A stretch of DNA of 6,911 bases, from the NCBI GenBank assembly GCA_014380965.1, contig JACMIV010000023.1, positions 1 to 6,911 of the forward strand, written 5' to 3'. Of this stretch, positions 1-6,911 are shown piece after piece. The translations under genes and the position numbers were made by a program. The stretch's first letter is position 1, and each line of letters opens with the position of its first letter. This DNA is from Rhizobiaceae bacterium. GTDB lineage: Bacteria; Pseudomonadota; Alphaproteobacteria; Rhizobiales; Rhizobiaceae. The notes under the pieces are model-generated. The model was not told the DNA's origin. It saw only the letters and a list, made by a program, of their open reading frames with translations, and did not search any database.

Positions 1-306
1 CGAGCCGGCGCGCGGATCATCGCGGGCGGGACACGCGTCATCCTCGTCGAGGGCAATTACGTGCTTCTCGACGCCGAGGGCTGGCGCGACCTCTCCCCGC
101 TCTTCGACGTGACCGTCATGGTCCGGGCGGACGAGGCGGTGCTGGAGGCGCGATTGCGGGAACGCTGGGCGCGCTTCGATGCCGCGGCGATGACGGAAAA
201 GATGGACGGCAACGATCTTCCGAACATGCGCCTCGTCCTTCGAAGCAGCCTGCCCGCGCATTACGTTCTCGATACCGATGCCGGAACCGCCGATGCCGAG
301 TCATGA
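1..306 (+). CDS. P-loop kinase-like protein (uridine kinase / FrcK-like), 3' part only
   Basis: This is the C-terminal 101 residues of a gene that begins before the window; frame 1 is open from the first base to the TGA at 304-306. The visible part carries the segment EGNYVLLDAEGW (residues 17-28), followed by a predicted beta strand (FDVTVMV) and an Arg-rich helix (LEARLRERWARF). It then has GNDLPNMRLVL, a signature I associate with the uridine kinase/phosphoribulokinase-like kinases annotated in rhizobia as fructose transport kinase FrcK and in enterobacteria as YggC. Such proteins bind ATP through an N-terminal P-loop, which lies outside the window, so the phosphate-donor site cannot be checked. 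The physiological substrate is uncertain: sugar, nucleoside or pantothenate-like compounds are all possible. The 3' end overlaps the start of rsmE, which suggests the two genes are co-transcribed and translationally coupled. Family assignment is fairly safe; specific substrate is not. Confidence 0.72.
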   Translation, partial: RAGARIIAGGTRVILVEGNYVLLDAEGWRDLSPLFDVTVMVRADEAVLEARLRERWARFDAAAMTEKMDGNDLPNMRLVLRSSLPAHYVLDTDAGTADAES

Positions 307-1048
307 CTTCAAGAGCCCGAGGCTCTTCACCGCAGAGGCGCTCGGCGACGGCTTGTCTTTCGAGGCGAGCGCCGAGCAGGCGAACTATCTTCTCAACGTC
401 CTGCGCCTCGACGAGGGCGCTGCCATTCTTCTCTTCAACGGACGGGAAGGGGAGTGGCGGGCCGATCTGTCGCGTCCGTCGAAGAAGCGGCTGGTGCTCC
501 GCCCTCTCGCGCGCATCCGCGACCAGACTCCGATCCCGACGCTGCACTACCTCTTTGCCCCGCTGAAGTCGGCGCGGCTCGACTACATGGTCCAGAAGGC
601 GGTGGAGATGGGGGCCGGCCGGCTTCAGCCCGTGATGACGCAGCATGTCCAGGCGCCGCGGATCAACGTCGAAAGAATGCGGGCGAATGCGATCGAGGCG
701 GCCGAGCAATGCGGCATCCTGTCCGTTCCGGACTGCTGCGAGATGATGCGGCTCGCCGACGTCCTCGATCGTCTCGATCCGGCGCGCACGCTCCTCTTCT
801 GCGACGAGCGCGAGGCGGAAGCGAGCCCCATCGATTATCTGAGACGCGAGCCGAGAGGACCGATCTCGCTGCTCATCGGCCCTGAAGGCGGGTTTTCCGA
901 GGAGGAGCGGCGGCTTCTCCGCTCCACGAAAGGCGTCCTGCCGATCTCGCTCGGGCCCCGGATCCTCAGGGCCGACACGGCCGCCGTCGCCGCGCTCGCC
1001 GTAGTGCAGGCGGCGATCGGGGATTGGGACGGATCCTCGCCACGCTGA
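293..1048 (+). CDS. rsmE: 16S rRNA (uracil(1498)-N3)-methyltransferase RsmE
   Basis: RsmE uses S-adenosylmethionine to methylate N3 of U1498 in helix 44 of 16S rRNA, in the assembled 30S subunit in the cytoplasm. The 251-residue product has the usual family length. An N-terminal PUA-like RNA-binding part (about residues 8-75, starting PRLF) is followed by a SPOUT methyltransferase domain. Diagnostic motifs are K102 and E105 in QKAVEMGAG, AAEQCG at 136-141, the SAM-binding knot loop LLIGPEGGFSEEE at 193-205, and LGPRILRADTA at 220-230. The last has Asp where many homologues have Glu. The start at 293 is preferred because GGAA at 283-286 sits 6 bases upstream and the protein then begins close to the conserved PRLF. 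An in-frame ATG at 278 would add five residues but has no visible ribosome binding site. The gene overlaps the preceding kinase-like gene by 14 bases. Function is confident; the exact start is less so. Confidence 0.95.
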   Translation: MPSHDFKSPRLFTAEALGDGLSFEASAEQANYLLNVLRLDEGAAILLFNGREGEWRADLSRPSKKRLVLRPLARIRDQTPIPTLHYLFAPLKSARLDYMVQKAVEMGAGRLQPVMTQHVQAPRINVERMRANAIEAAEQCGILSVPDCCEMMRLADVLDRLDPARTLLFCDEREAEASPIDYLRREPRGPISLLIGPEGGFSEEERRLLRSTKGVLPISLGPRILRADTAAVAALAVVQAAIGDWDGSSPR

Positions 1049-1180: not shown

Positions 1181-2554
1181 ATGGCGCGCGACACCACAGA
1201 CGCAACGCTCGTCACCTCCCTCGACGATCTCGTCCAGCACCTCCAGGGCGGCGAAAAGCCGGCAGAGGCCTTCCGGATCGGCACCGAACACGAGAAGTTC
1301 GGCTTCTATGCGGACGACCTGTCGCCCGTTCCCTATGCGGGCGAGCGCGGCATCGAGAAACTCCTCGAAGGCATGCAGGCGCTGTCGAACTGGGAGCCGA
1401 TCATCGACGACGGCAAGCTGATCGGTCTCGTCGGCATCGACGGGCAGGGGGCGATCTCGCTGGAGCCAGGCGGCCAGTTCGAGCTTTCGGGCGCGCCGGT
1501 GAGGACGATCCACGACACCTGCCGCGAGTCCAACCAGCATCTGCGCGAGGTCCGTCAGGTGGCCAAGGCGCTCGGCATCGAGTTCCTCGGCCTCGGTTCG
1601 AGCCCGACCTGGACGCTGGCCGAGACGCCGATCATGCCGAAGTCCCGCTACGAGATCATGCGCGCCTACATGCCGAAGGTCGGCACGCGCGGGCTCGACA
1701 TGATGTTCCGCACGACGACGATCCAGGTCAATCTCGACTTCGCCACCGAAGCCGACATGCGGCGCAAGATGCAGATCGGCATGCGCCTGCAGCCGGTCGC
1801 ATCGGCGCTGTTCGCCAACTCGCCTTTCACCGACGGCAAGCCGAATGGCCTCGTATCCTGGCGCTCGGACGTCTGGTCCGACGTCGACAACCGGCGCTCG
1901 GGCCTCCTGCCCTTCGTCTTCGAGCCCGACTTTACCTATCGCCACTATGCCGAATGGGCGCTCGACGTGCCGATGTATTTCGTCATGCGCGACGGGCACT
2001 ATCATGACGCGACGGACGTGACCTTCCGGCAGTTCATGGATGGAGCGCTGAAGGGCAGGATCGCCGATGCCGAGCCCACGATGGGCGACTGGGCGAACCA
2101 TCTGTCGACGCTGTTTCCAGATGTCCGCCTGAAGCGCTTCATCGAGATGCGAGGCGCCGACGGCGGCCCGTGGCGGCGCATCTGCGCCCTGCCGGCCTTC
2201 TGGGTGGGGCTGCTCTACGACGAGACGGCGCTCGCGGAGGCGGAGGCCCTCACGGGCGACTGGAGCTTCGAGGAGGTCTCCGCCATGCGGGCGGACGTTC
2301 CGAAAAACGGCTTCCGCACGCCCTTCCGCGATGGCGCCGTGCTCGACCTCGCCCGGTCGGCCGTCGCCATCTCGAAGGCGGGCCTTCAGCGCCGCGCCCG
2401 GCGGAACGAGGAGGGCGACGACGAAAGCGTTTTCCTGGCGCCGCTGGAGGAGGTCGTCGCGCGCGGCACGACCTCGGCCGAGGATCTCGTCCGTCTCTAC
2501 GAGGGGGAATGGGGTGGCGACATGACGAAGGTATTTCGGCATCTGACATATTGA
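1181..2554 (+). CDS. gshA: Glutamate-cysteine ligase (plant/alphaproteobacterial type)
   Basis: The enzyme (EC 6.3.2.2) joins L-glutamate and L-cysteine at the expense of ATP to give gamma-glutamylcysteine, the rate-limiting step of cytoplasmic glutathione synthesis. The 457-residue product matches the GCS2 family shared by plants and alphaproteobacteria, not the enterobacterial GshA class. Visible hallmarks are FRIGTEHEKFGF at 31-42 (substrate and metal-binding region of the active site), ISLEPGGQFELSG at 92-104, FRTTTIQVNLD at 176-186, and a C-terminal stretch from residue 398 (KAGLQRR) to the Tyr-ending EGEWGGDMTKVFRHLTY that parallels plant GSH1. Only two cysteines are visible, at 114 and 335. 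I therefore see no basis for the regulatory disulfide pair described for plant enzymes. The start is set by the GAGGAG ribosome binding site. The gene probably has its own promoter in the gap after rsmE. No gshB is present in the window. Confidence 0.95.
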   Translation: MARDTTDATLVTSLDDLVQHLQGGEKPAEAFRIGTEHEKFGFYADDLSPVPYAGERGIEKLLEGMQALSNWEPIIDDGKLIGLVGIDGQGAISLEPGGQFELSGAPVRTIHDTCRESNQHLREVRQVAKALGIEFLGLGSSPTWTLAETPIMPKSRYEIMRAYMPKVGTRGLDMMFRTTTIQVNLDFATEADMRRKMQIGMRLQPVASALFANSPFTDGKPNGLVSWRSDVWSDVDNRRSGLLPFVFEPDFTYRHYAEWALDVPMYFVMRDGHYHDATDVTFRQFMDGALKGRIADAEPTMGDWANHLSTLFPDVRLKRFIEMRGADGGPWRRICALPAFWVGLLYDETALAEAEALTGDWSFEEVSAMRADVPKNGFRTPFRDGAVLDLARSAVAISKAGLQRRARRNEEGDDESVFLAPLEEVVARGTTSAEDLVRLYEGEWGGDMTKVFRHLTY

Positions 2555-2598
2555 ACCCATCGGGATCGGCCGGCCGCAGGACGAGCGACGGCGTCGTT

Positions 2599-2616
2599 CT
2601 GCAGAAGCCTCTGCGG
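2599..2616 (+). terminator. Weak hairpin downstream of gshA
   Basis: CTGCAGA at 2599-2605 can pair with TCTGCGG at 2610-2616 (one G-U pair) around a four-base AGCC loop. Only a short ATTT follows, not a full T tract, so it is at best a weak intrinsic terminator or a transcript-end stabiliser. It lies 45 bases after the gshA stop. Confidence 0.25.
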
Positions 2617-2644
2617 CATTTGCCCGCTCCTTCGAGGCCATAAC

Positions 2645-2669
2645 GGAACTCCGCACGATTGCATCGGTT
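2645..2669 (+). promoter_or_regulatory. Candidate EcfG/RpoE2-type general stress promoter of the PKS operon
   Basis: GGAAC at 2645-2649 is followed after exactly 18 bases by TT at 2668-2669, in the context GGTT. This agrees with the GGAAC-N18/19-TT pattern described for the alphaproteobacterial general stress sigma factors EcfG/RpoE2, whose fuller -10 is CGTT, so one base deviates. Transcription would start near 2675-2678, leaving a leader of about 30 bases before the TTG start. A poorer sigma-70-like pair, TTGCAT (2659-2664) and TGTACT (2681-2686) with a 16-base spacer, overlaps it and is an alternative. Confidence 0.45.
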
Positions 2670-2697
2670 GAGCGAGAAGTTGTACTCGCACAGCACC

Positions 2698-2701
2698 GGA
2701 A
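2698..2701 (+). promoter_or_regulatory. Weak ribosome binding site before the TTG start
   Basis: GGAA sits six bases before the TTG at 2708. It is a short Shine-Dalgarno match, but it supports the TTG as the true start because the residues that follow (AYLNRIATAVPP) already belong to the conserved N-terminus of the synthase family, and no upstream ATG or GTG in frame is better placed. Confidence 0.4.
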
Positions 2702-2707
2702 CGTCTT

Positions 2708-3775
2708 TTGACCACCGCCTATCTCAACCGGATCGCGACAGCGGTTCCTCCGAATGACGTGCACGAGGCGTTTTTGGGTTTTGCCGACAAATTGCTGCGG
2801 GACAAGCGCGGACACGCCGCCTTTCGCCGGATGGCGAAGCGAGGACAGATTGACCATCGCTGGTCCTGCCTTACCGCTGCTCCGGCGGATTCGGTTACCA
2901 CGCTCGATGAAGAGGGATTCTACGCCTTCGGCAGGTTTCCATCCACCGGCGAGCGCATGCGCCGCTATGAGATCGAAGCGCCGGGACTGGCCGGAAAAGC
3001 GGTCGAAGCGCTCGAGATAGAGGATCCCGCCAGCCTAACCCATCTGATCATCATATCCTGCACGGGCCTGTCGGCACCGGGTGTCGATTTCGAGCTGATC
3101 CGGCGCTTCGGGCTCAATCCGTCGATCGAGCGCACCGTCGTCGGCTTCATGGGCTGTTACGCCGCTATCAACGGTCTCAAGCTCGCCCGACATATCATCC
3201 GGTCGGAGCCGCGATCGCGAGTCCTGCTCGTCAGCCTGGAGTTGTGCACGCTGCATCTTCAGGAGGCCGGCAATTTGGAGCAGGTGCTCACCTTCATGAT
3301 TTTCGGGGACGGGTGCGCCGCGGCGCTGATCACGGCGGAGCCCCACGGCTTCGCGCTCGATGCCTTCCATGCGATGCTGGTGCCGCAGACGGCCGAGCAC
3401 ATCACCTGGAACATCGGCGATCTCGGCTTCGACATGGTTCTTTCAGGCGGGGTGCCGGCGGGTATTGCGGACGGGCTGCGGGCCGGCACGGCGCCGATGC
3501 TCCTGGACCGAGCTGTCGGCGACATTGATCTTTGGGCGGTTCATCCGGGCGGTCGATCGGTGCTCGACGCGGTCGAGACGGCTCTGGAGCTTCCCGACCA
3601 AGCGCTGGCGCCATCGCGGGAAGTGTTGCGCAGTTACGGCAACATGTCGTCGGCAACGATCCTCTTCGTGCTGCAAGCGATGTTGCAGGACGATCCGGCC
3701 GGCAAGAACGGCTGCGCTATGGCCTTCGGTCCGGGTCTCGTGGCGGAGACGATGCTCTTCAGCGCGGCGGCCTGA
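2708..3775 (+). CDS. Type III polyketide synthase (chalcone synthase-like)
   Basis: This homodimeric ketosynthase family loads an acyl-CoA (or acyl from a carrier), extends it with malonyl-CoA and cyclises the product to a resorcinol, phloroglucinol or pyrone. The 355-residue length is typical of bacterial members. The full catalytic triad is visible: Cys150 in GFMGCYAA, His279 in WAVHPGG and Asn312 in YGNMSSA. Further family marks are SCTGLSAPGVDFEL at 117-130, FGDGCAAALI at 199-208 and the C-terminal AFGPG loop at 339-343. Translation starts at a TTG, which suggests modest expression. It is the first gene of a tight operon with a methyltransferase and a flavoprotein. That context, known from phenolic-lipid operons such as srsABC, favours an alkylresorcinol or alkylpyrone made from a fatty acyl starter; this is inference, since starter specificity cannot be read from motifs. 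No dedicated fatty acid synthase genes are nearby, so starters would come from general metabolism. Confidence 0.93.
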   Translation: MTTAYLNRIATAVPPNDVHEAFLGFADKLLRDKRGHAAFRRMAKRGQIDHRWSCLTAAPADSVTTLDEEGFYAFGRFPSTGERMRRYEIEAPGLAGKAVEALEIEDPASLTHLIIISCTGLSAPGVDFELIRRFGLNPSIERTVVGFMGCYAAINGLKLARHIIRSEPRSRVLLVSLELCTLHLQEAGNLEQVLTFMIFGDGCAAALITAEPHGFALDAFHAMLVPQTAEHITWNIGDLGFDMVLSGGVPAGIADGLRAGTAPMLLDRAVGDIDLWAVHPGGRSVLDAVETALELPDQALAPSREVLRSYGNMSSATILFVLQAMLQDDPAGKNGCAMAFGPGLVAETMLFSAAA

Positions 3776-3779
3776 ACGG

Positions 3780-4508
3780 ATGAGCGCGATCGATTTTTCT
3801 CGTCGGGCGACCACTCCCGAGCTGATGGACACGGAGGATTGCGATTTCGCCACCTTCCGGGGCTGCCTCGTGGATCTTGCCAGGGTCAATCGCCTGACGC
3901 TCGCCTACCGGTCGACGATCGCCTACCTCGATCGGCTCGAGCGCTCCGCACGTCTGCCGAAGGGACGTGCCCTCGAAATCATCGATGTCGGCAGCGGTTA
4001 CGGCGACATGCTGCGGCGCGTCGCCGCTTGGGCGGCCCGGCGCAACATCCAGGTCCAGCTGACGGGGATCGACCTCAATCCATGGTCTGCGGAAGCGGCT
4101 CGCGAGGCGACCCCGGTCGAGGTGCCCGTCGTCTGGCGCACGATGGATGTCTTCGACTTTCGGCCCGACACCCGGCCCGATCTCGTCATCAGCTCGCTCT
4201 TCACCCATCACCTCGACGACGCCGCTCTCGTCCGCTTTTTGGTCTGGATGGAGGAGACGGCCTCGATCGGCTGGTTTGTCAACGATCTTCACCGGCACGA
4301 ACTGCCCTACCGTGTTTTCGCCACCGCCTCTCGCGCGATGCGCGCACACCGCTTCGTCCAGAACGATGGGCCGATCTCGATCACGCGCAGCTTCGTTGCG
4401 GAGGATTGGCGCGCGTTGCTGACGGCGGCCCGGATACCGGCGAAGGGCACGAGGGTGGACTGGTGGATGCCGTTCCGCCTGTGCGTCTCGCGGGTCCGCG
4501 AGCTGTGA
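3780..4508 (+). CDS. Class I SAM-dependent methyltransferase of the PKS operon
   Basis: The 242-residue product is predicted to transfer a methyl group from S-adenosylmethionine to the polyketide product or a later intermediate. The Rossmann fold is shown by motif I, IIDVGSGYGDML (67-78), whose glycine-rich loop binds SAM. LTGIDLNPWS (94-103) follows, with an acidic residue (Asp98) at the end of strand 2. Asp123 lies in TMDVFDF, and motif IV-like DLVISSLFTHHLDD is at 134-147. There is no signal peptide or membrane segment. The ATG at 3780 lies four bases after the synthase stop with no strong ribosome binding site of its own, pointing to translational coupling. The 3' end overlaps the next gene by four bases. 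Position between a type III synthase and a flavoprotein suggests O-methylation of a resorcinol hydroxyl, or C-methylation if the flavoprotein product is a quinone. Substrate and target atom are not determined by the sequence. Confidence 0.85.
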   Translation: MSAIDFSRRATTPELMDTEDCDFATFRGCLVDLARVNRLTLAYRSTIAYLDRLERSARLPKGRALEIIDVGSGYGDMLRRVAAWAARRNIQVQLTGIDLNPWSAEAAREATPVEVPVVWRTMDVFDFRPDTRPDLVISSLFTHHLDDAALVRFLVWMEETASIGWFVNDLHRHELPYRVFATASRAMRAHRFVQNDGPISITRSFVAEDWRALLTAARIPAKGTRVDWWMPFRLCVSRVREL

Positions 4509-5632
4509 CCCGCATCCGCGATGCCATCGTGATCGGCGGCGGTCTCGCCGGGTCGGCGCTGGCGCATAGTCTGGCGCAGGCAGGTCGTGACGTTACGCTT
4601 GTCGAGCGCGAAAGTGGGCCGCATGACAAGGTCTGCGGCGAGTTTCTCAGCCACGAGGCGATCTTCTACCTTCGCCGGCTGGGCCTGGATCTGGAGGACC
4701 TCGGAGCAGTTCCGATCGAAACGGTGGGCGTCGCGGCTCGTGGAAGGTTGGTCACATGTCCCCTGCCTTTCCAGGCGCTCAGCCTGTCTCGACGTCGGCT
4801 CGACGAAGCCCTCACACAGCTGGCGGTCGAAGCCGGCGCTGAATTCCTTCGCGGCAGCGGTGTCAATACGCTGGTCGGGAAGCAGGGGAGCTGGACGGCG
4901 CGGCTTGCCGACGGACAGCATCTGGAGGCACGCGACGCCTTCATCGCGACGGGCAAGCATGACCTGCGCGGATGGAAGCGTCCGCCAGGCAGCCAGAACG
5001 ACCTCATCGGCCTGAAGCTATATTACCGGTTGAAGGCTGGAGAAGCCGCCGAACTGAGGAGGCGGGTCGAGCTGATTCTGTTTCCCGGCGGCTATGGCGG
5101 GCTTCAGCCGATCGAAGACGGGTGCGCCAATCTCTGCCTTCTGGTCGGGAAGGATCGCTTCGCGGAGGCGGGCCATTCGTGGGAGGCTCTCCTCGGCGAC
5201 ATCGGGCGGGACTGCCCGCATCTGGCAGGTCGCCTCGACGAGGCAATCGCGGTTCGAGACCGGCCGATCGCGATCACCTCCATCCCCTATGGCTTCGTGC
5301 GGCAGGAAGCGACGGATTGCTGGCATCTCGGGGATCAGTCGGCTGTCATTCCATCCTTCGCCGGAGAGGGCATGTCGATGGCCCTGCACAGCGCTCATCT
5401 GGCGGCCCGGTGTCATCTTTCGGGCGGTTCGGCAAACGACTTCCAGAAGCGCTTCGCTGCCGACGTCGCGGGGCAAGTTCGCCGCGCGACGCTTCTCTCC
5501 CGACTGCTGGTGCATGGCTGGGCGCAGACGGTGTCGGCCGGCGGTCTTTCAGTGCTGCCTTCCATTCTCGCGGCAGTCGCTTCAAACACTCGCCTGCCGG
5601 CAGCCTCGCTGCTGCGTGGCGCTTCAAGCTAG
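4505..5632 (+). CDS. FAD-dependent oxidoreductase of the PKS operon (hydroxylase or geranylgeranyl-reductase-like)
   Basis: The 375-residue product is a flavoprotein of the large PHBH-fold class that includes aromatic hydroxylases and geranylgeranyl reductases. The N-terminal dinucleotide-binding motif is AIVIGGGLAGSALA (7-20), ending in the ribose-binding acid of TLVERE (31-36). KVCGEFLS (42-49) is shared with the geranylgeranyl reductase branch. FIATGKHDLRGW (146-157) corresponds to the second adenine/ribose contact, and LGDQSAVIPSFAGEGMSMAL (275-294) is the GD motif that holds the FAD ribityl and pyrophosphate. A moderately hydrophobic C-terminal stretch (about 333-358) could support membrane association. 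The GTG start at 4505 overlaps the methyltransferase stop as GTGA, and the binding motif begins within ten residues, so the start is well supported. By analogy with SrsC, it may hydroxylate the resorcinol ring toward a quinone. Reduction of an unsaturated side chain is an alternative. The TAG ends at 5632 and no gene of the operon follows directly. Confidence 0.87.
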   Translation: MTRIRDAIVIGGGLAGSALAHSLAQAGRDVTLVERESGPHDKVCGEFLSHEAIFYLRRLGLDLEDLGAVPIETVGVAARGRLVTCPLPFQALSLSRRRLDEALTQLAVEAGAEFLRGSGVNTLVGKQGSWTARLADGQHLEARDAFIATGKHDLRGWKRPPGSQNDLIGLKLYYRLKAGEAAELRRRVELILFPGGYGGLQPIEDGCANLCLLVGKDRFAEAGHSWEALLGDIGRDCPHLAGRLDEAIAVRDRPIAITSIPYGFVRQEATDCWHLGDQSAVIPSFAGEGMSMALHSAHLAARCHLSGGSANDFQKRFAADVAGQVRRATLLSRLLVHGWAQTVSAGGLSVLPSILAAVASNTRLPAASLLRGASS

Positions 5633-5849
5633 GGTATCGGAACGCCGAGCAAGATGTCGGGACCGGCGTTGGCAGGCGGCGCAGCGATGGCGAGCAGCGG
5701 CGCCTCCACCATCGGGTAGCCTCCGGTCTGCTGTCGGCCGCGAGGGTTCCAACCATGCTGACCCCTCGAAGCTTCACAGCGGCGCCAAAGCCGTTCATTC
5801 TCCGATTCTTGAATGAGCCGCGCTTCAAGCGAGGCCGGAGGAGGATGAA
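5633..5849. other. Intergenic region between the flavoprotein and the DUF937-like gene
   Basis: These 217 bases hold no gene that I can support: the frames that stay open lack ribosome binding sites and resemble no family. An inverted repeat TCATTC (5795-5800) / GAATGA (5811-5816) with a ten-base loop lies near the right end. An 11-base direct repeat flanks the gap. No clear terminator for the polyketide operon is visible. A promoter for the downstream gene is expected here; TTCACA at 5773-5778 with CATTCT at 5796-5801 (17-base spacer) is the best match by eye and is weak. Confidence 0.45.
5837..5844 (+). promoter_or_regulatory. Strong ribosome binding site
   Basis: GGAGGAGG ends five bases before the ATG at 5850. 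It is the best Shine-Dalgarno match in the window and selects that ATG over the out-of-frame ATG at 5845, predicting efficient translation of the downstream protein. Confidence 0.75.
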
Positions 5850-6833
5850 ATGGCGGGCTTCAACGATTGGCTTGATGTGACCGATCCGAAGCTGATGGCC
5901 GAGTCTCTCGCCGACCAGTTCCGCCTCAGCCAGAACGAGTTCCTGAAGGCGCAGCAGGCTCTCGCTCCAGCTTTCGCGCTGGGCTTCCAGCGCGCGATGA
6001 CCGACCCGAAAGCCTGGAGCAACCTTCAGGGTGCGGGGGCCTCGATGCTTCCGGGGGCGGGTGGCGGGCAGGCGCCGCAGATCCTCGATCTCTTCTTCGG
6101 CTCCGACGCGCTGACGAATGCCGTCGCCCGTCAGGCTTCGCTCTTTGCCGGCATCGCGCCCGACACGATCCAGAAACTGATGCCGAGCCTTGCCATGCTC
6201 AGCATGGACGCCATGATGCGCGCGACCATGGCCAATCTGGCACGCCAGCATCCGCAGGGCCTCGCGACCGGCGATTTCGGAGGGGCGACGGCGGAGATGA
6301 TGCGGCGTGGAGCCAATGCGGTCGAAGCGCTGACGCGTCCTTCCGACGAAGCCGCGCGGCGTCGCGACGAGCGGTCCGGCCTTGCGCCCGCCTTCTTCGG
6401 CGACGTGTTTCAGGAGGCGATGAAGGGCGGCCTTGCCTGGATGGGACGAGGATACGAGCCTCAAAACCCGCCAGGGCGCCCCGTCCAGTCGCCCGTCGCA
6501 AGCGGACCGTCGTCCGAAGTCTTCAACCCGATGATGCCCTTCGCAGCACTGTTCGACGCCTTTGCGAGGGGTATGCAGGGCGCGGGTGAGGACGTGCCGT
6601 CGGCGGGCGAGCCGGTGCCGCGCGAAGGGCAGGATGCGCCTCGTCGACCCGACGCTGAAGCTGCTCATGGTGCGCCAGGACAGGCCGAAACGTCTTCTTC
6701 CGGACCGGTCGATGCGTCTGACGATGGCATCGTCGGCGAGATGATGCGCTCGGGACATAAGATGCAGGAGGAGTATGCGAGGGAAATGGCCAGCCTTTTC
6801 GATCGCTATCAGCGCATCGCACCTGCCTCGTGA
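5850..6833 (+). CDS. DUF937-like domain protein of unknown function
   Basis: The 327-residue product has no signal peptide or obvious membrane helix. The N-terminal part (about 1-60) is helical, with Gln-rich QFRLSQNEFLKAQQALAPAF. A glycine-rich linker at 61-75 leads to the core at about 80-132, whose pattern (FFGSDALTNAVARQASLFAG, then IQKLMPSLAML) resembles DUF937: a gene-product-sized helical unit with a conserved LMP. Segments FFGDVFQEAMKGG (182-194) and NPMMPFAALFDAFARGMQ (226-243) are further amphipathic helices. Residues 244-292 are a Pro/Gly/Ala/Ser-rich, acidic, probably disordered linker. The last segment, MMRSGHKMQEEYAREMASLFDRY (298-320), is a charged helix that could mediate assembly. 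I recall similar layouts in rhizobial DUF937 proteins, but no function is established there. A phasin-like role on storage granules was considered and is not supported. The start is fixed by the GGAGGAGG site. It is probably transcribed separately from the polyketide operon. Confidence 0.78.
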   Translation: MAGFNDWLDVTDPKLMAESLADQFRLSQNEFLKAQQALAPAFALGFQRAMTDPKAWSNLQGAGASMLPGAGGGQAPQILDLFFGSDALTNAVARQASLFAGIAPDTIQKLMPSLAMLSMDAMMRATMANLARQHPQGLATGDFGGATAEMMRRGANAVEALTRPSDEAARRRDERSGLAPAFFGDVFQEAMKGGLAWMGRGYEPQNPPGRPVQSPVASGPSSEVFNPMMPFAALFDAFARGMQGAGEDVPSAGEPVPREGQDAPRRPDAEAAHGAPGQAETSSSGPVDASDDGIVGEMMRSGHKMQEEYAREMASLFDRYQRIAPAS

Positions 6834-6911
6834 GTTTTCCGGCGGCGTGACGGGAGACGGCAGGCCGGCTGTCCAGGTTGCGCCGGCAGCGCAAAGAGTG
6901 CGATGACGGCG
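6834..6911. other. Right-edge non-coding stretch
   Basis: The last 78 bases follow the stop of the DUF937-like gene. I see no hairpin with a T run. An ATG at 6903 with AAGAG at 6894-6898 might be the start of a next gene, but only three codons are in view, so it cannot be called. Confidence 0.35.

Follow-up and report, generated by a model that had tools for sequence, protein, structure and literature searches.

The window, as the whole 6,911-nucleotide stretch of Rhizobiaceae DNA analyzed here is called, carries three closely packed genes encoding a type III polyketide synthase (PKS), a methyltransferase (MT) and a flavin adenine dinucleotide (FAD)-dependent protein. The plus-strand order is the end of a nucleoside kinase gene, rsmE, gshA, PKS, MT, FAD and a gene of unknown function (Table 1). 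On balance, the trio is read as an intact operon, likely gained, for a methylated, ring-oxidized long-chain 5-alkylresorcinol that leads to a hydroquinone or quinone lipid. Directly supported here are the intact genes, the catalytic residues, the gene order and overlap, the conservation of the trio, the matched tailoring pairs, the absence of the trio from this site in relatives and the grouping of the synthase. This kind of operon is already known, and the window trio is neither rare nor undescribed as a gene module.

Four bases separate the PKS and MT genes, and the MT and FAD genes overlap by four bases, all on the plus strand. An earlier, sequence-only reading had given this layout, and every coordinate and spacing in it proved correct. 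The close-packed order synthase, methyltransferase, flavoprotein on one strand is that of srsABC and pkqABC, and it supports the srsABC-like functional order proposed in that reading.

Table 1. Features of the window (coordinates in nucleotides; position 1 is the first letter of the window)
Feature	Coordinates	Strand	Remarks
rsmE, 16S rRNA (uracil1498-N3)-methyltransferase	278..1048	+	NCBIfam NF008696, 349 bits (cut-off 234); conserved flank of insertion site
gshA, plant-type glutamate-cysteine ligase	1181..2554	+	TIGR01436, 597 bits (cut-off 463); left flank of insertion site
Left-junction stretch of insert	2559..2609	.	same-genus DNA similarity gone by 2558; similarity to G046 trio from 2610
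Upstream region in common with G046 trio, presumed promoter region	2610..2707	+	unbroken block ~2610-2631; no sigma-70-like match
Type III polyketide synthase, 355 amino acids	2708..3775	+	TTG start; Cys150-His279-Asn312; Cys118, Cys180 and Trp234 in cavity positions
Class I S-adenosylmethionine-dependent methyltransferase, 242 amino acids, pair 1	3780..4508	+	ATG start; motif DVGSGYG
FAD-dependent protein, 375 amino acids, pair 1	4505..5632	+	GTG start overlaps MT stop; group A flavoprotein monooxygenase / geranylgeranyl-reductase superfamily
Right-junction stretch of insert	5631..5770	.	similarity to G046 trio to 5630; same-genus similarity again from 5771 (L131)
Conserved gene of unknown function	5850..6833	+	sub-threshold DUF937; right flank of insertion site

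The synthase has the thiolase-type chalcone synthase fold, with the N- and C-terminal chalcone/stilbene synthase domains of Pfam both above cut-off. The catalytic residues Cys150, His279 and Asn312 named in the earlier reading are found at exactly those positions and are invariant in all 51 aligned sequences, the window among them. The TTG start is common to the synthase of a genome from another genus (G046), which is 89% identical. The closest solved sequence is that of Pks18, which takes long-chain acyl-coenzyme A (CoA) and makes alkylpyrones (PMC6274091). Cys118 and Cys180 match the long-chain cavity pattern, and Trp234 occupies the slot of L266 in Pks18; all 51 aligned sequences have Trp here, against Leu in Pks18. 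In ArsB, the W281G substitution leads to a loss of resorcinols and a gain of pyrones (PMC6274091). From these residues, a resorcinol-type product is the best guess for the window synthase. The sequence-only reading had proposed a methylated, oxidized alkylresorcinol or pyrone; Trp234 and the relation to the long-chain enzyme Pks18 favor the resorcinol type, and the pyrone is kept as a rival. The Paracoccus PKS (H2), recovered as two tblastn pieces with six stops in one frame, was left out of the residue comparison.

The MT has Methyltransf_25 and Methyltransf_11 domains above the Pfam cut-off, and no solved relative was found at E 0.001. Several FAD/NAD-binding domains of the flavoprotein likewise score above cut-off. 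Group A flavoprotein monooxygenases are marked by GxGxxG, GD and DG motifs. The window protein has GGGLAG at residues 11-16, and its Gly276, Asp277, Pro283 and Gly287 are invariant in all 35 aligned sequences; the strict GD pattern as written has no match. The pair Gly150-Lys151, in an ATGKHD stretch taken as the place of the DG motif, is invariant in the same 35 flavoproteins.

To ascertain how often the three genes occur together, loci were counted among the best 80 of at least 573 confirmed matches (among at least 588 pattern matches) in a species-wide genome collection, a sample of near relatives and not of all type III PKSs; gene distances were taken from stop-to-stop frames. Both the MT and the FAD gene lie within 3.5 kb of the synthase in 71 of the 80 loci, a retention of both partners that is more than chance. 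The order PKS-MT-FAD on one strand is kept in 69 loci, in 55 of which the MT and FAD frames lie within 150 bases of each other. Close relatives of the synthase are thus accompanied, for the most part, by these two partners. An MT alone was found in seven loci, including L023, which runs off its contig, and L031, which ends 1.5 kb after the synthase; neither partner was found in two, including L078 at a contig end. By record title, the 80 loci belong mainly to Alphaproteobacteria and Acidobacteria, with single Myxococcota (Polyangiaceae), Planctomycetota, Delta- and Gammaproteobacteria. Plasmid-borne trios were found in Roseomonas, Falsirhodobacter, Paracoccus (with a frameshifted synthase), Deinococcus radiodurans and the planctomycete Paludisphaera. 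The notion of an operon special to this lineage is not supported: trios occur in Alphaproteobacteria, Acidobacteria, Myxococcota, Planctomycetota and Deinococcus, and have been described for Acetobacteraceae (PMC8776678).

The flavoprotein of the D. radiodurans trio has no detectable similarity to the window FAD protein, and a Microbacterium flavoprotein, taken from its annotated start, gave no BLAST match to it at E 1e-3. Beside a Streptomyces plasmid synthase, no partner pair was recognized by eye in the open reading frame list of the unannotated stretch. A protein database search for the synthase gave at least 7,998 matches among 8,000 candidates; within 150 related genomes, 46 have a synthase match (own genome counted), and in 10 it is better than 1e-100. 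Two strains of Mesorhizobium soli (L017 and L018; L024 and L025) each have two separate synthase loci, L017 being without both partners. Loci from Bradyrhizobium and Methylobacterium (L036, L054) have a major facilitator superfamily transporter gene, possibly for an exporter, close to the trio or synthase.

The tailoring genes fall into two matched pairs, for which the labels pair 1 (MT1/FAD1) and pair 2 (MT2/FAD2) are used in this report; they were assigned by best phmmer score against representatives over 95 loci, with two genomes counted twice. Pair 1 is present in 53 of the 95 loci and pair 2 in 28, and the two are never mixed among these 81. The remaining loci have an MT only (nine), neither gene (two) or distant types (three: Psychrobacter, D. 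radiodurans and Paludisphaera); one distant-type locus has an MT of the Deinococcus type with an FAD protein weakly nearest pair 1. On the synthase tree the tailoring pair changes at least three times. Pairs 1 and 2 probably give different head groups, and they provide a ready test, with two predicted head groups on one synthase family. The window carries pair 1, and relatives in its genus are of the pair-2 type.

The bin's genus is likely Aureimonas or a relative. In five of five same-genus genomes, rsmE, gshA and the 5850 gene are adjacent without the trio (the match to the 5850 gene is weak in L135), with rsmE adjoining gshA in L130-L133 and L135. In G046, from another genus, gshA and the 5850 gene are adjacent with no trio between them. 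None of the six relatives examined thus has the trio between gshA and the gene that follows it; gshA itself is 81% identical to that of the window in G002 and G005 and 79% in G046. G046 does carry a trio, on a contig apart from gshA and with IS66 and IS4/5-type transposase sequences ∼4-7 kb away, and its proteins are 89%, 85% and 78% identical to the window PKS, MT and FAD protein. DNA similarity between the window and this contig is confined to window positions 2610-5630. Similarity to same-genus DNA ends by 2558 and restarts at 5771 in L131 and at or beyond 5850 in the other aligning genomes.

The synthase tree was a quick one, with SH-aLRT support only and long outgroup rows, and only the forks quoted here are relied on; it omits L136 and L139 (too short) and L113/L114 (same genomes as L058/L061). 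The window synthase groups most closely with that of G046 (support 99); the next fork joins these to Geminicoccus, Agaricicola and others (seven rows, support 96). Those of G001, G002, G004 and G005 are placed in a different clade (13 rows, support 100). G001 and G004 carry pair 2, whereas G002 and G005 have MT2 but lack an FAD gene within 3.5 kb of the synthase. A different version of the trio or synthase is thus present elsewhere in the genome in four of the five same-genus genomes; G003 has a distant synthase only. The earlier reading had noticed neither this different version nor the absence of the trio from the site in six of six relatives; the matched tailoring pairs and the likely acquisition at gshA are new additions to it.

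Because the trio is absent from the gshA site in six of six relatives, it was likely gained there by transfer, which is the simplest reading of the site comparison. The window is the entire contig C333 of a 2.57-Mb genome bin; a chimeric contig is unlikely, since the trio is bordered on either side by the neighbors expected there, in the expected order. An ancestral trio at the gshA site, lost by the relatives, is highly improbable. In its favor, a trio is easily lost and the bin is only 66% complete, in 401 contigs, a point that also weighs against the main reading. Against it, the trio is absent in all six relatives, one of them from another genus, and the synthases of four same-genus genomes belong to another clade. 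Within one genus, the apparent gain at gshA offers a natural with/without comparison.

In the proposed pathway, Cys150 would be loaded with a C14-C18 fatty acyl group supplied by CoA or acyl carrier protein, and three condensations with malonyl-CoA, as expected for the family, would give a tetraketide. The cavity narrowed by Trp234 may favor C2-C7 aldol closure to a resorcinol or resorcylic acid over lactonization to a pyrone. The MT would methylate a ring hydroxyl or, alternatively, a ring carbon, and the FAD enzyme would hydroxylate the ring, giving a hydroquinone able to oxidize to a benzoquinone. The most likely product is a methylated long-chain alkylhydroquinone or quinone, which could finally be used as a membrane phenolic lipid or an auxiliary electron carrier. 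In the literature searched, no product is described for any alphaproteobacterial trio; products are reported for the RePKS synthase and for the RpsA synthase of the alphaproteobacterium Rhodospirillum centenum.

The p42d plasmid gene of Rhizobium etli, which we take to be the published RePKS, encodes a characterized type III PKS from the same order with Trp at the 234 slot. It is only 33% identical over 250 amino acids, is directly neighbored by neither an MT gene nor a flavoprotein gene of this kind, and makes pyrones according to its description. RpsA, compared by description only, is a characterized synthase that accepts C6-C20 acyl starters; it differs in its use of methylmalonyl-CoA and gives alkyldimethylpyrones and/or alkyldimethylresorcylic acids (PMC6274091).

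Closer parallels are provided by whole operons. The type III PKS clusters of Acetobacteraceae all have an MT and an FAD-dependent monooxygenase, with the nearest outside that family in Azospirillum, Methylopila, Microvirga and Paracoccus, and the Rhodospirillales metabolite is called unknown (PMC8776678). The earlier suggestion that the product in this lineage may be undescribed accordingly stands. These trios consist of three homologous adjacent genes (66%, 62% and 60% identity to PKS, MT and FAD over the aligned parts for the Roseomonas plasmid trio) in other organisms and at other genomic sites. In pkqABC of Mycobacterium smegmatis, with a homologous cluster in Streptomyces sp. MNU77, the order synthase, methyltransferase, oxidoreductase is that of the window, and a Trp is reported at the resorcinol position; methylmalonyl-CoA is among its drawn substrates, and the partners are likened by description (PMC9927152). 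Its products are polyketide quinones that carry electrons in M. smegmatis (PMC9927152). The srsABC operon of Streptomyces griseus has an alkylresorcinol synthase with a downstream methyltransferase and hydroxylase (PMC9927152); it belongs to another phylum, and the partners are likened by functional order only. The same three enzyme kinds are found in hidABC (hierridin, Cyanobium) and in a planctomycetal operon (PMC10896814, PMC8086630), where the usual order is MT-oxidoreductase-PKS, in contrast to PKS-MT-FAD in the window; some cyanobacteria have the order hidC>hidA>hidB (PMC8086630). The Paludisphaera trio is homologous to that of the window, with identities over the aligned parts of 41% (PKS), 28% (MT) and 29% (FAD). 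Four of six planctomycetal synthases tested in C. glutamicum gave C15-C17 alkylresorcinols (PMC10896814).

Several points weigh against the proposed resorcinol-derived quinone, and some of them favor other chemistries. The Trp slot was set by the Pks18 alignment, with ArsB, SrsABC and HidC compared by description only. Trp is also insufficient for a resorcinol, as RePKS, a pyrone synthase according to PMC6274091, carries it, and PKS11, said to have it as well, is described as an alkylpyrone synthase (PMC6274091). A synthase that makes alkylpyrones for its partners to decorate would be in keeping with these two enzymes and with Pks18, the nearest solved relative and itself an alkylpyrone maker; such a product is nevertheless unlikely, given the Trp in all 51 aligned sequences where Pks18 has Leu and the behavior of ArsB W281G. 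Moreover, a Pks18-like Tsukamurella synthase has Leu at this slot and adjoins a desaturase gene, not an MT/FAD pair. The tunnel is in part unlike that of Pks18, whose Asn208 and Ala209 correspond to the bulkier His183 and Leu184. Together with the best NCBIfam match of the synthase, to DpgA (109 bits, far below the cut-off of 425), this might suggest small or aromatic starters and a soluble polyketide, but Cys118 and Cys180 fit the long-chain pattern and planctomycetal trio synthases make long-chain alkylresorcinols, so that small or aromatic starters appear very unlikely.

Further points against it concern the tailoring enzymes. None of the family models searched puts a name to the MT or the flavoprotein (GG-red-SF reaches 95 of the 159 bits required), the usual DG pattern is unmatched, and nine of the 80 loci have no FAD gene within 3.5 kb, L023, L031 and L078 being limited by sequence end. 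In the one planctomycetal expression test of such partners, the Gimesia MT and flavoenzyme together led to one methyl group, probably on carbon, with no hydroxylated product listed, and the role of the flavoenzyme was left open (PMC10896814). A halogenase or double-bond reductase in place of a ring hydroxylase is still rather unlikely: in the comparison with solved relatives, aromatic hydroxylases come within a few Z units at comparable lengths, and the trio flavoprotein is annotated as an FAD-dependent monooxygenase in Roseomonas, Paracoccus and Falsirhodobacter records. The motif WxWxIP, which marks FAD-dependent halogenases, is absent from the window protein.

Alternatively, the product may be a plain phenolic lipid of the membrane or envelope, a methylated alkylresorcinol without a redox role to which the flavoenzyme adds only a hydroxyl, a real possibility although not the preferred one. 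Alkylresorcinols enter the cyst membrane in Azotobacter (PMC4824345), and queries for ccoN, ccoO and ABC1 matched 3 of the 95 loci, from two genomes; a general linkage of the trio to respiratory genes was rejected on these counts. Quinones are, however, described as the end products of the analogous pkqABC and srsABC systems (PMC9927152, PMC5916927, PMC10896814). The assignment of the operon to the envelope in the sequence-only reading is hence kept as one option, since the analogous pkqABC trio makes respiratory quinones (PMC9927152). Respiratory use of the product is a minority option because the oxidase and ABC1 queries match in only two genomes among the 95 loci. Should the product prove to be a quinone, auxiliary polyketide quinones would be extended from Actinomycetota to Gram-negative bacteria.

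Alphaproteobacteria are generally considered to respire with ubiquinone alone. A more speculative and doubtful proposal is that they trade a self-contained three-gene cassette for a second, non-isoprenoid quinone, with the head-group pair swapped as a unit, so that close relatives within Aureimonas would have different auxiliary quinones for use at low oxygen. It is hinted at by PKS-MT genes adjacent to cbb3 oxidase genes in two sister genomes and by an acidobacterial YceI-like gene family. In G002 (L058/L113) and G005 (L115), a PKS-MT pair lacking an FAD gene immediately precedes the cbb3 oxidase genes ccoN and ccoO; in G002, the pair is itself preceded by an ABC1-kinase gene. Eight acidobacterial trios (L032, L046, L048, L057, L059, L060, L070, L077) carry extra genes: one for a DUF2306 membrane protein separates the MT and FAD genes, and one for a YceI-like protein follows the FAD gene (one member per family was checked in Pfam). 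YceI-like proteins bind quinones or isoprenoids. A gene for a lipid/isoprenoid-binding protein also adjoins one planctomycetal synthase (PMC10896814).

The G+C content of the trio (64%-66%) is slightly lower than that of the flanks (66%-67%). The promoter search gave no sigma-70-like sites, the terminator search gave one terminator-like site, within the MT gene, where 2.4 are expected from shuffles, and no RNA family reached its gathering score. In the defense system search, the sole match was that of the MT to mad2, at 31 bits. The upstream block at ∼2610-2631 matched solely the region upstream of the G046 trio; in the 300 bases 5′ of 16 other related trios, the best matches showed 8-10 mismatches over 21 positions, like shuffles, and a shared regulatory motif was rejected. 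No tRNA genes were found in L112 and L001. In L112 (G046), positions 2416-3846 hold part of an IS66 transposase and a DctQ domain in one frame, suggesting a rearranged transporter gene. The 5850-6833 gene lies beside gshA in all six relatives and is fast diverging, with 35%-56% identity compared with 72%-81% for gshA. The right end of the window (6664-6911) overlaps positions 1-248 of bin contig C208 with 98.8% identity, an overlap of either unjoined or strain-variant contigs.

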